This document shows, one piece after another, positions 36,167 to 39,447 of a DNA stretch of 39,447 bases. The DNA is from Candidatus Actinomarinales bacterium (lineage in GTDB: Bacteria; Actinomycetota; Acidimicrobiia; Actinomarinales; Actinomarinaceae), in contig SGYT01000006.1 of the NCBI GenBank assembly GCA_004214055.1, positions 1-39,447 on the forward strand, in the 5' to 3' direction. Position numbers and translations under genes: made by a program. Each line of letters begins with the position of its first letter. The first letter of the stretch is position 1. Below the pieces are notes generated by a model that was not told the origin of the DNA, made no database searches, and worked only from the letters and a program-made list of their open reading frames with translations.

Positions 36167-37270
36167 TTATTTGTTTGAGTAAATCATTTCATTTAATCTT
36201 TGATACTCTTGTAAAATCATTTCACTTTTTTCATTTTTGATATCTAGATATTGAGTTACGATCTCAAAGTCTCCTATCTTCCATAAGCCCCAAATGCAAT
36301 AAAATCTTATAAGATCAGAATGAGATTTTAATAAACTAATAAATATCTCTTTAGTATCACTAGATGGATTATTAGCTAGAGCAATAATTGCATTCCTTTT
36401 TAAATAATCACCATTTCTTTTTGGAATGTAAAACCAATTATATAATCTAACTAAATCGTCGCTTTCACTATTAAGAACTTGTACAAGATCAACAGATGTG
36501 TCAGTATTAATATTCATTACACTTCCTTGTCCTGGTGGACAAGATATGAGACATTCATCGCAACCATAAAACCTGTTGCCAATTTGTGCTCTCATATCAT
36601 GTGGAATGATGTCTGGTGATTGTAGCCAATATGAAATGCACTTATTTGAATCTAAAATAAACTCCTCATCTAGTGCACTTGTAGGACATGAAATCTGACA
36701 AAGATTGCAGCTTCCACATGAATAATCTTTTTCAGCCGCTAGATCAAATTTTTTCTCTACATATATATTTCCAATTAATTGCCACGGGCCTTTTCCTGGA
36801 GAAAGCATCATTGTACTTTTTCCTTGCCAGCCTAAACCTGATTGTTCAAAAAATAATCTGTCATAATGTTTTGGATTATCAATAAACTCTGCTGTTCTTA
36901 AATTATTTTTTTTAAAATGTTCCTTGATTTGATTTATGAATTCTTTTAATGGTATGTAATAATCTTTTTTTGCAAATCTTGCAATCGAGCCTCTGCCTGG
37001 TAAAAACCCTAAGTTAGAGTAATTTTCGGTTATATATGAGTATGAGACAACTATGCACGATTCAGCCCACTCAAATTTATCTCCTAATCCTGAATAATTT
37101 GGATCAGAGAAAGTAAATTTCATATTTGCATGTCTATTTTCTTCTTTTGCTCTATTTATCTCTAAGGATTTATTCAATTGTGAAGGGAGTCTGACGACAG
37201 ATATATTAAACCCATCAGGTATGTCTATATTATTTTCAGATAAATAATTTAATAGATTTATATCTTTCAT
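36167..37270 (-). CDS. queG: Epoxyqueuosine reductase
   Basis: CGSCNLCQISCPTSAL and CDECLISCPPG clusters, FFEQSGLGWQGKSTMML, HEAT-like C-terminus. Confidence 0.93.
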   Translation of the reverse strand: MKDINLLNYLSENNIDIPDGFNISVVRLPSQLNKSLEINRAKEENRHANMKFTFSDPNYSGLGDKFEWAESCIVVSYSYITENYSNLGFLPGRGSIARFAKKDYYIPLKEFINQIKEHFKKNNLRTAEFIDNPKHYDRLFFEQSGLGWQGKSTMMLSPGKGPWQLIGNIYVEKKFDLAAEKDYSCGSCNLCQISCPTSALDEEFILDSNKCISYWLQSPDIIPHDMRAQIGNRFYGCDECLISCPPGQGSVMNINTDTSVDLVQVLNSESDDLVRLYNWFYIPKRNGDYLKRNAIIALANNPSSDTKEIFISLLKSHSDLIRFYCIWGLWKIGDFEIVTQYLDIKNEKSEMILQEYQRLNEMIYSNK

Positions 37271-37284
37271 TTCTATCAGGTTTT

Positions 37285-37292
37285 ACTATAGT
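37285..37292. promoter_or_regulatory. Palindromic bidirectional -10 element ACTATAGT
   Basis: Reads TATAGT on + (37287-37292, 8 nt before leader-peptide ATG) and on - (37290-37285, 14 nt before queG ATG). Confidence 0.45.
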
Positions 37293-37300
37293 TAATTCTA

Positions 37301-37351
37301 ATGAAAAAATTAGAAATCTTAATTACTTTATTAGTGCTAGTGCTTATGTAG
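37301..37351 (+). CDS. ilvB leader peptide MKKLEILITLLVLVLM
   Basis: 16 codons, 10 of which are Leu/Ile/Val (6 L, 2 I, 2 V); stop followed by alternating stems and terminator. Confidence 0.85.
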   Translation: MKKLEILITLLVLVLM

Positions 37352-37375
37352 CGCTCATTAGTATGTATTGAGCGC
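37339..37375 (+). promoter_or_regulatory. Attenuator stems: 1:2 (37339-37344/37350-37355) and alternative 2:3 (37351-37357/37369-37375)
   Basis: AGTGCT/AGCGCT (one G-U) versus perfect GCGCTCA/TGAGCGC. Confidence 0.65.
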
Positions 37376-37402
37376 CTCCTTGAACTAAGGAGGTTTTTTT
37401 TT
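37375..37402 (+). terminator. Rho-independent terminator (attenuator) upstream of ilvB
   Basis: CCTCCTT-gaact-AAGGAGG followed by T9, ending 10 nt before the ilvB ATG at 37413. Confidence 0.9.
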
Positions 37403-37412
37403 GAGGATGGAT

Positions 37413-39125
37413 ATGACAAAAGAAACGTTATCTGGAGCAGAATTAATAGTTAGAACCCTTGAATATTTAAAAATTTCTACGGTTTTTGGACTCCCAGGTG
37501 GTGCAATATTGCCTGCTTATGATCCGTTGTATGACAGCCCTATAAGACACATTTTAGCAAGACATGAACAAGGTGCCGGCCATATGGCGGAAGGCTATGC
37601 ACAAGCTACAGGAGAACTTGGGGTAGTAATAGCAACCTCCGGACCTGGTGCAACAAACTTAATAACCTCATTGAACAATGCTTTAATGGACTCGACCCCA
37701 TTGCTTGCCATAACTGGACAAGTTGCAACAGAAGCAATAGGTAACGACGCTTTCCAGGAAGCTTACACAGTTGGGTTAACCATCTCAGCAACAAAACATA
37801 ATTATCTAGTTACTGATGTGAAAGAAATTCCTCAGATACTTCTTGAAGCTAAACATATTGCTACATCAGGTAGGCCTGGTCCTGTTTTAGTGGACATTCC
37901 TAAAGACATTTTGAATGACAAAACAAGTTGGGTAGAACCTAAGTTAGAAGAACTACCAGGTTATAAACCAACTTTAGAAGCAAACCCTAGGATGATTCAA
38001 CAAGCAGCTGAATTAATAAAAAATTCTAAAAAACCAATTCTGTATGTTGGTGGAGGGATAATACATTCAAAAGCCAACCAAGATCTGTTTGAGTTATCTA
38101 CAAAATATAATATACCTGTTGTTACAACTCTTATGGGTAGAGGAGCTTTCCCAGATGGCAATGACTTGTGTATAGGAATGCCTGGTATGCATGGTAATTA
38201 TACAGCAACAACCTCTATGCAGAATTCTGACTTACTTATTGCTTTAGGAGTGAGGTTTGATGACCGAGTTACCGCAAATCCTAAATTTTTTGCTCAAAAA
38301 GCCAAAGTCATCCATGCTGACATAGATCCTGCTGAAATAGGGAAAGTAAGAGAACCAGAAGTTCCTATTGTTGGAGATGCAAAAAGTGTAATTAAAGGTT
38401 TGATTGAAACATTAGGAGATACAAAAGTAGATACAAAAGATTGGCTTAAAGAGATAAAAGAAATGAAAAAAAGTTATCCTTTAAGTTATGACCAAGAAGA
38501 AAAAGGTCCACTTAAAGTTCCATATGTTCTAGAAGAGCTACAAAAAATGTCAGAAGAAGATTCCATAGTTGTTTCTGGAGTTGGCCAACACCAAATGTGG
38601 ATTTCTCTTCATTGGAAATTTACTTCCCCTAACACTTGGTTAAATTCTGGCGGTTTAGGCACAATGGGTTATTCACTTCCTGCAGCAATTGGAGCAAAAG
38701 CTGCATTTCCTGAGAAGCAAGTTCTTGCTTTAGATGGAGATGGTTGTTTCCAAATGACTTGCCAAGAGTTAATTACTGCATCTACTGAAAACATACCATT
38801 AAAGATAGTAGTTTTTAACAATGGAAATCATGGAATGGTAAGGCAATGGCAAAAAATATTTTATGATCATAGATTCTCAGCATCTGAACTAACTCATCAT
38901 ACGCCAGATTATGTAGCTCTTGCTGAAGCTATGGGAGCAGTTGGGCTTAGGATGGTTGAAAAATCGGATGTTAATAGAGTGTTCGAAGAAATGTTCAAAG
39001 TTAATGATAGGCCTGTACTAGTTGATTGTGTTGTAGACCCCGATGACATGGTCTTCCCAATGGTTCCAGCAGGCGGTAGTAATGATGTAGTACTTTTAAA
39101 TGAAGATGACTTGAAGAAAATATGA
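37413..39125 (+). CDS. ilvB: Acetolactate synthase large subunit
   Basis: GLPGGAILPAYD, RHEQGAGHMAEGYAQATGE, ThDP motif GDGCFQMTCQEL...NNGNHGMVRQWQ; GAGG SD 6 nt before ATG 37413 (track start 37401). Confidence 0.97.
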   Translation: MTKETLSGAELIVRTLEYLKISTVFGLPGGAILPAYDPLYDSPIRHILARHEQGAGHMAEGYAQATGELGVVIATSGPGATNLITSLNNALMDSTPLLAITGQVATEAIGNDAFQEAYTVGLTISATKHNYLVTDVKEIPQILLEAKHIATSGRPGPVLVDIPKDILNDKTSWVEPKLEELPGYKPTLEANPRMIQQAAELIKNSKKPILYVGGGIIHSKANQDLFELSTKYNIPVVTTLMGRGAFPDGNDLCIGMPGMHGNYTATTSMQNSDLLIALGVRFDDRVTANPKFFAQKAKVIHADIDPAEIGKVREPEVPIVGDAKSVIKGLIETLGDTKVDTKDWLKEIKEMKKSYPLSYDQEEKGPLKVPYVLEELQKMSEEDSIVVSGVGQHQMWISLHWKFTSPNTWLNSGGLGTMGYSLPAAIGAKAAFPEKQVLALDGDGCFQMTCQELITASTENIPLKIVVFNNGNHGMVRQWQKIFYDHRFSASELTHHTPDYVALAEAMGAVGLRMVEKSDVNRVFEEMFKVNDRPVLVDCVVDPDDMVFPMVPAGGSNDVVLLNEDDLKKI

Positions 39126-39447
39126 GTGAAAGAATCCTAAGCGTTCTAGTTGAAGATAAGCCAGGAGTATTAGCTAGGGTTGCATTAACTATTTCTAGAA
39201 GAGGATTCAATATTAATTCTTTATCTGTGGGGCCAACAAATATTGAAGGTAGATCAAAGATGACGATAGTTACAGAACTTGAGTCAGTAGAGCAAGTAAA
39301 AAAACAATTAAACAAGCTAGTAAATGTGATAAAGATTGTTGAATTAGATCCAGATAATACTATTGAATCTGAAGTTTTACTTATGAAAGTATCAATTAAC
39401 AAAGAAACTCAAACATCTGTTATTGAAAAAGCTTCTTTATCGGGAGC
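39122..39447 (+). CDS. ilvN: Acetolactate synthase small subunit, truncated by window edge
   Basis: ATGA overlap with ilvB; MSERILSVLVEDKPGVLARVALTISRRGFNINSLSVGPTNIEGRSKMTIVT (ACT domain); not in the ORF track because no stop in the window. Confidence 0.95.
   Translation, partial: MSERILSVLVEDKPGVLARVALTISRRGFNINSLSVGPTNIEGRSKMTIVTELESVEQVKKQLNKLVNVIKIVELDPDNTIESEVLLMKVSINKETQTSVIEKASLSG

Follow-up and report, generated by a model that had tools for sequence, protein, structure and literature searches.

In the ilvBN, ilvGMEDA and trp attenuators of E. coli, ribosome stalling at control codons selects either a terminator or an antiterminator, and the 2:3 hairpin has a whole arm in common with the 3:4 hairpin. 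Leader-peptide attenuators of ilvB are known from Corynebacterium, Mycobacterium and Streptomyces (PMC1262725, PMC10272879, PMC11857589, PMC13236596). The C. glutamicum ilvBNC "fast attenuator" (PMC11857589) and the ilvB-II RNAs (PMC10272879) have a near-leaderless uORF with branched-chain amino acid (BCAA) codons, followed by adjacent antiterminator and terminator hairpins that have only a few boundary bases in common; the boundary-base logic in C. glutamicum is backed by mutations, and mutations in the foot raised valine synthesis about tenfold (PMC11857589). The M. tuberculosis ilvB1 leader combines a BCAA uORF, a GUA control codon and an intrinsic terminator, and its dependence on these codons is experimental (PMC13236596). 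The Streptomyces ilvL, leuL and trpL group includes leaderless peptides before ilvB, leuA and leuS, several of them with terminators (PMC8079986, PMC1262725), and ilvB-OMG is an ilvB-associated RNA with a BCAA-rich uORF for which attenuation has been proposed (PMC10272879).

The leader described here lies upstream of ilvB in a 39,447-nucleotide stretch of Candidatus Actinomarinales DNA (contig SGYT01000006.1, analyzed at its full length and called the window below). In sequence and layout the leader and its relatives resemble each of the above systems, and the stalling logic proposed for it is that of E. coli; however, its two hairpins share at most two bases rather than a whole arm. These boundary bases are GC in the Actinomarina leader and GCC in C. 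glutamicum. In ilvB-II most of P1, the first hairpin, lies within the uORF, whereas the Actinomarina uORF stops at 37351, where P1 begins, and the pairing of the P1 loop with the right shoulder of the terminator that was proposed for ilvB-II is possible in the window but is not conserved. The M. tuberculosis leader is longer. The BCAA codons of S. lividans IlvL (MRTRILVLGKRVG) lie farther from the stop codon than those of the Actinomarina leader, and the Streptomyces descriptions consulted mention no hairpin starting within the stop codon. The ilvB-OMG uORF is, by its description, also Thr-rich; a gammaproteobacterial origin of the window and direct filing of its leader under ilvB-OMG were both dropped once the relatives proved to be Candidatus Actinomarina.

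We therefore class the window leader with the ilvB leader-peptide attenuators already known from actinobacteria, while the class-wide, codon-swapped, two-hairpin form documented below is undescribed in Rfam 15 and in the literature searched. Neither the window leader nor 20 loci of its group matched Rfam 15 (ppGpp riboswitch, T-box and known leaders) at the curated thresholds; the best leader match was Phe_leader, at 15.6 bits against a threshold of 55, and no ilvB-named family was returned for the window leader even at E up to 10. A literature search, with most subscription journals outside its reach, gave no paper on attenuators in Acidimicrobiia or upstream of cimA. The original prediction's word "uncharted" therefore holds for the lineage, within that literature, but not for ilvB leader-peptide attenuation as such, which was known in the three genera above.

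The ilvB locus and its leader in Actinomarina

The source genome groups with Candidatus Actinomarina (Actinomycetota, Acidimicrobiia); its closest named relatives are Actinomarina single-cell genomes and metagenome-assembled genomes (MAGs), and the next closest are Acidimicrobiia. The nearest record, L032 (CAJWPI010000052.1, 98% IlvB identity), carries the label of a gammaproteobacterial MAG, which is probably wrong because the records that come next after it are Actinomarina. The labels of L032, L092 and L104 (Gammaproteobacteria, Bifidobacterium breve) all misfit sequences that group with Actinomarina and Acidimicrobiia, and these are probably mislabelled MAGs. The gene proposed to be regulated, ilvB (acetolactate synthase large subunit, 37413-39125, + strand; NCBIfam TIGR00118, 751 bits, cut-off 538), is followed on the + strand by ilvN (small subunit, 39122-39447; TIGR00119), which is truncated by the end of the contig. 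In the relative L033 the operon continues with ilvC and leuA (contig gene order; genes named by sequence). A queG-like gene (36167-37270, - strand; NCBIfam TIGR00276, 166 bits, below the cut-off of 200) diverges from a common promoter region and lies outside the device.

Upstream of the leader is a near-palindromic promoter element, TTTACTATAGTTA (37282-37294, + strand), which is identical in 30/30 genus loci except at one A/T position. About one exact copy is found per Actinomarina genome, nearly always at ilvB; the form TTWACTATAGTTA at 37282-37294 was present at every Actinomarina ilvB promoter read. The element may be a symmetric -10 region common to the divergent queG, or an operator. Within it TATAGT (37287-37292) is a plausible -10 box that ends 8 nt upstream of the leader ATG (7-8 nt across the genus), and transcription is therefore predicted to start at the ATG or within a few bases of it. 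The 16-codon uORF, MKKLEILITLLVLVLM* (37301-37351, + strand; ATG at 37301, TAG at 37349-37351), has no Shine-Dalgarno sequence, and 10 of its 16 residues are branched-chain; its reading frame, near-constant length and C-terminal residues are kept in 30/30 genus loci. Elsewhere in the class, 27 of 65 leaders have a promoter-like pair whose -10 ends 5-11 nt upstream of an in-frame start, as against 2 and 4 leaders in control windows of the same width; in the Acidimicrobiia these pairs peak 6-9 nt upstream of the leader start, and just 2 of the 27 leaders have a Shine-Dalgarno-like tetramer. These distances suggest that the leader peptide is probably leaderless, as is documented for leader peptides in Streptomyces (PMC8079986) and C. 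glutamicum (PMC11857589).

The control codons, TTA GTG CTA GTG CTT (Leu-Val-Leu-Val-Leu, 37331-37345, + strand), were delimited by genus conservation and by masked folding. Leu-Val-Leu is invariant among them and Ile is absent from that stretch of codons, which refines the original prediction of a leader that senses Leu-, Val- and Ile-tRNA charging. The P1 hairpin (37351-37375, + strand; stem 2:3 of that prediction), our putative antiterminator on grounds of class covariation and masked folding, begins in the stop codon and pairs GCGCTCA (37351-37357) with TGAGCGC (37369-37375). It is followed by an intrinsic terminator, T (37374-37402, + strand; stem 37374-37394), with the core stem CCTCCTT/AAGGAGG at 37375-37393 and a T9 tract at 37394-37402; the GAGG directly 3' of this tract (37403-37406, + strand) is, by inspection, the likely ilvB ribosome binding site. 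The 3' arm of P1 and the foot of T have the GC at 37374-37375 (+ strand) in common, and computed pair probabilities place the switch point there. The overlap had been put at a single base, which is correct for Watson-Crick pairs (C37375), but G37374 is a second common base through a G-U pair. The uORF, stems and terminator that had been predicted are otherwise present exactly as claimed.

Two further pairings are possible in the window. In the 1:2 pairing (37333-37355, + strand), which dominates the fold of untranslated RNA and is a possible anti-antiterminator, AGTGCT (37339-37344, with a second copy at 37333-37338) can pair with AGCGCT (37350-37355); it is too invariant in the genus to allow a covariation test. 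As an element of the whole class it was rejected, since comparison with swapped and shuffled segments revealed no equivalent in other Acidimicrobiia. The second is the region-2:terminator pairing of CTCATTAGT (37354-37362) with ACTAAGGAG (37384-37392), which is present as had been predicted, with one mismatch (8/9 pairs). The segment 37345-37402 folds with z = -3.77 relative to shuffles. A scan of both strands of the 39.4 kb for a stop codon with a hairpin of at least 6 bp and an abutting terminator found the ilvB leader as the sole site, and the same criterion gave no site in 20 shuffles of the + strand.

We searched 42 genomes of the genus and read the 30 best ilvB loci; the leader (uORF, P1 and T) precedes ilvB in all 30. 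Across these loci conservation covers the promoter element, the reading frame of the uORF with its Leu-Val-Leu codons and its stop, GCGCTC...GAGCGCC, and the stem and T run of the terminator; the loops differ between loci, as do the peptide's N-terminal half and the distance to ilvB. Since P1 is near-invariant within the genus, the genus alone is no proof of pairing, and covariation can come from other genera only.

P1 and the terminator across the Acidimicrobiia

The regions upstream of Acidimicrobiia ilvB genes (54-61% IlvB identity) have a matching plan in a different sequence: a short uORF with a terminal run (for example LVVVT, LVLP or LVVLIV), a GC-rich hairpin that starts no more than 3 bases from the first base of the stop codon, and then a CCTCC-type terminator. 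A related leader is found upstream of nearly all the other Acidimicrobiia ilvB genes examined. Of 89 loci, a covariance model trained on 46 leaders (R1) matched 87 with E no higher than 1 and 85 with E <0.001, training leaders included. In a phylum-wide sample of 297 genomes it had matches in 71, and in 22 of the 27 listed from Acidimicrobiia. In the window's own genome R1 finds the ilvB site only; leuA-type and cimA probes from distant relatives gave no match there, which shows little in a genome that is 78% complete.

Both hairpins covary in the class. Two-sided changes at kept P1 and T pairs numbered 154 cells against 42.3 +/- 7.1 in shuffles and no more than 21 in slid controls, and when each leader's own arms were compared with arms swapped across species the z values were -23.9 for P1 and -16.1 for T, in tests whose shuffles treat the leaders as unrelated. 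Alignment of ilvB leaders from relatives bears out the BCAA codons and the terminator that had been predicted. The same own-versus-swapped comparison of 65 class leaders gave no support to uORF:P1, uORF:T or P1 loop:T pairings, and shuffling of segments within leaders, which detects invariant complementarity, agrees in finding P1 and T only. Among nine leader segments no third helix was supported; the sole nominal match, between the 5' arm of T and the 30 nt after T, had p 0.006 among 36 tests.

These comparisons bear on which pairing is the antiterminator, for which the original prediction had left two candidates. As in the Corynebacterium ilvB-II model, the 5' arm and loop of P1 could pair with the loop and 3' arm of T (37354-37362 with 37384-37392). 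Within the genus, own partners pair slightly better than swapped ones (p = 0.008), and in L005 the match is 9/9 with two positions changed on both sides relative to L001; however, this helix is worth just -3.2 to -3.3 kcal/mol in L007, L011, L015 and L017, and in the 65 class leaders own partners are no better than swapped ones (z -0.1) or shuffled loops (z 0.3). We consider this antiterminator quite improbable. Of the two candidates P1 is the conserved one and is favored by masked folding (below), while the region-2:terminator pairing is not conserved.

Across the class the stop codon and the T core are 26-44 nt apart (26 nt in the window), and in 62 of 65 class leaders 1-8 nt separate the T core from the 3' end of P1. 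When T is given its longest possible stem, at least 1 nt lies between it and P1 in 45 of the 65, and the two overlap in just 12. Textbook attenuators have mutually exclusive hairpins, whereas here two conserved hairpins share no more than two bases and usually none.

Ribosome position and the fate of the terminator: a probable switch

We folded the leaders at equilibrium with an assumed ribosome footprint that reaches 18 nt 5' and 12 nt 3' of the first base in the A site. In the window leader the foot pair 37375-37393 has a probability of 1.00 with the ribosome at the stop codon and of 0.22-0.23 with the ribosome stalled at codons 37331, 37334 or 37337, the fall being due to capture of C37375 by P1; P1 is freed by a ribosome stalled on codon -6, -5 or -4 relative to the stop (37331-37339). 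With the ribosome at the stop, the foot pair lies at 0.72-1.00 in 22 distinct Actinomarina leaders, and in 19 of them it falls to 0.03-0.43 upon stalling at -6 to -4, so that P1 wins the foot in these 19 when the competing structures are folded under a ribosome mask; the exceptions (L019, L021 and L022) retain 0.85-0.90. Footprint edges from 9 to 15 nt move the permissive positions by about one codon. When no ribosome is present 1:2 dominates and T forms.

We therefore think it likely, from these computed structures and from comparison of genomes, that the leader attenuates transcription of the ilvB-ilvN(-ilvC-leuA) operon according to ribosome position, with P1 as its antiterminator. RNA polymerase would start the leader at or very near the uORF AUG with a ribosome trailing it. 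With charged Leu- and Val-tRNA at hand, the ribosome would reach the stop codon with its leading edge over the 5' arm of P1; P1 would be blocked, T would close to its foot and transcription would end upstream of ilvB. If charged Leu- or Val-tRNA were scarce, the ribosome would stall on Leu-Val-Leu, 4-6 codons before the stop, with its edge just short of P1; P1 could then form and take the GC at 37374-37375 from the foot of T, and with P1 leaving a gap before the U-tract and abutting T the polymerase would read through. In the absence of translation, 1:2 might replace P1 and the operon would stay off.

Formation of P1 is compatible with most of the T stem and costs the foot only about two pairs, a loss that we infer would be sufficient for read-through. 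Closure of the last 2-3 bp is cited as essential for termination (PMC4824070). Outside Actinomarina most P1 hairpins have no overlap with T and the foot pairs hardly change (computed foot pairing shifts by more than half a pair in just 7 of 65 class leaders), so base-stealing is not a class-wide rule. Elsewhere in the Acidimicrobiia, where P1 mostly just abuts T, the simplest reading would be that P1 sterically hinders closure of the foot, as does a ribosome beside an E. coli terminator. There a stop codon 28 nt upstream, a distance to compare with the 26 nt of the window leader, left about 90% termination, and one 5 nt upstream left <10% (PMC4824070).

Stated by itself, this idea is that the bulk of a P1 duplex within a few bases of the T foot acts with no common bases at all, and it is compatible with P1 as antiterminator, being its possible class-wide form. 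The 1-8 nt spacing and the lack of any supported third helix are in its favor, as is the near abolition of termination by nearby ribosomes in E. coli (PMC4824070); however, we found no precedent for a hairpin acting in this way, equilibrium folding permits both hairpins, and stacking of P1 on T could in principle aid termination instead. We regard it as a possibility of some substance, though a doubtful one. If P1 does block termination, contact with the T foot would suffice as a gene switch, which would bear on the mechanism of intrinsic termination and offer a simple part for synthetic biology.

Pause hairpins assist other attenuators, and P1 is well located to pause polymerase within the 5' arm of T. 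P1 might thus only let the ribosome catch up, with T as the sole switch element and control exerted through ribosome-polymerase coupling or another step. A pause hairpin would leave unexplained why P1 starts in the stop codon and ends at T, and why rare codons lie where the ribosome edge meets P1, and we consider it unlikely. The computed P1 probability in class leaders is 0.93 with the ribosome at codon -4, 0.45 at -3 and 0 at -2, a fall that comes in the region where GTA is located.

Control codons and the genes downstream

The codons at which a ribosome would stall track the gene that follows. Some genomes have two R1 sites, and the second copies are mostly upstream of other BCAA genes. Because the codon bias of R1 had to be removed, we built a second model (R2) of P1 and T only, from the stop codon onward and with no uORF. 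R2 found 37 sites in 23 of 40 class genomes, and it misses all Actinomarina genomes because its P1 was trained on GC-rich relatives. An ORF with branched-chain codons ends at P1 in 35 of the 37 sites, including 15 of 17 in previously unsearched genomes; the two without one are L194 and L182, the latter adjoining masked sequence. Leaders of ilvB have Leu, Val and some Ile codons, those of cimA have Ile runs such as SIIIIR, those of leuB have Ile and Val codons, those of leuA have LLLL or LLLP, and a leuS leader from the phylum search has LLL. NCBIfam searches of representatives returned TIGR00977 (citramalate synthase), NF002898 (3-isopropylmalate dehydrogenase) and NF002991 and NF002086 (2-isopropylmalate synthase); for leuS, leucine--tRNA ligase was the best match on a fragment, below the cut-off.

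We counted branched-chain codons in the last seven positions, with gene classes assigned by characteristic sequence and the table transcribed by hand. Ile accounts for 45 of 50 such codons in cimA leaders against 13 of 89 in ilvB leaders, and Leu for 13 of 13 in leuA and leuS leaders; a match this good was reached by 0 of 100,000 label shuffles, which treat the leaders as unrelated. The P1 and T cassette with Leu, Ile or Val codons according to the gene is a natural codon-swap experiment, and it provides strong comparative evidence that tRNA charging is sensed in this marine lineage, which is abundant and little studied, and in the class to which it belongs. Attenuation by a BCAA leader peptide, as originally predicted, is thereby supported by the 30/30 genus loci, by P1 and T covariation in the class and by codons that track the gene.

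That there is no attenuator here, and that T ends a constitutive small RNA or belongs to a 5' region with an incidental ORF, is very hard to credit. Codon changes in the S. coelicolor ilvB leader were reportedly without effect (as quoted in PMC1262725); against this stand the codon runs that track the downstream gene across the class, and the leader codons of M. tuberculosis ilvB1, which have been shown to matter (PMC13236596). A broader proposal, which we offer tentatively and hold to be somewhat more doubtful than not, is that Acidimicrobiia and some other Actinomycetota possess a codon-programmable attenuator of two compatible hairpins, in which the stop-codon hairpin would disarm T by lying against its foot, with no arm in common, and that this cassette has been reused before ilvB, cimA, leuB, leuA and leuS with its codons swapped.

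Choice among synonymous codons is also skewed. In Acidimicrobiia ilvB leaders GTA makes up 96 of 158 Val codons in the last seven positions, where 12.1 are expected from the flanking genes; it is concentrated at codons -5 to -3, and each of GTT, GTC and GTG falls short of expectation. Shuffled codons pair with T more than the control codons do, so avoidance of pairing may contribute to the choice of GTA, though it leaves the shortage of GTT unexplained. The control Val codon of Actinomarina is GTG, which is 6.9% of the Val codons in the window, and constraint from the possible 1:2 pairing may also hold it in place. The rare control codons, GTA where genomes are GC-rich and GTG in the AT-rich Actinomarina, are informative on which codons make sensitive sensors.

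Leaders of cimA with Ile runs are found in L142, L144, L146, L148, L150, L153 and L160, and further ones in L161, L172, L184, L189, L193 and L196; judged by their codons these are probable isoleucine-sensing attenuators. In L143, L147, L149, L151, L173, L175, L180 and L195 the leuB leaders have Ile and Val codons and hardly any Leu, which suggests that leuB in those genomes is regulated for the isoleucine (citramalate) route. Finally, a related leader with Leu codons occurs upstream of leuS twice in one genome (L156 and L157).
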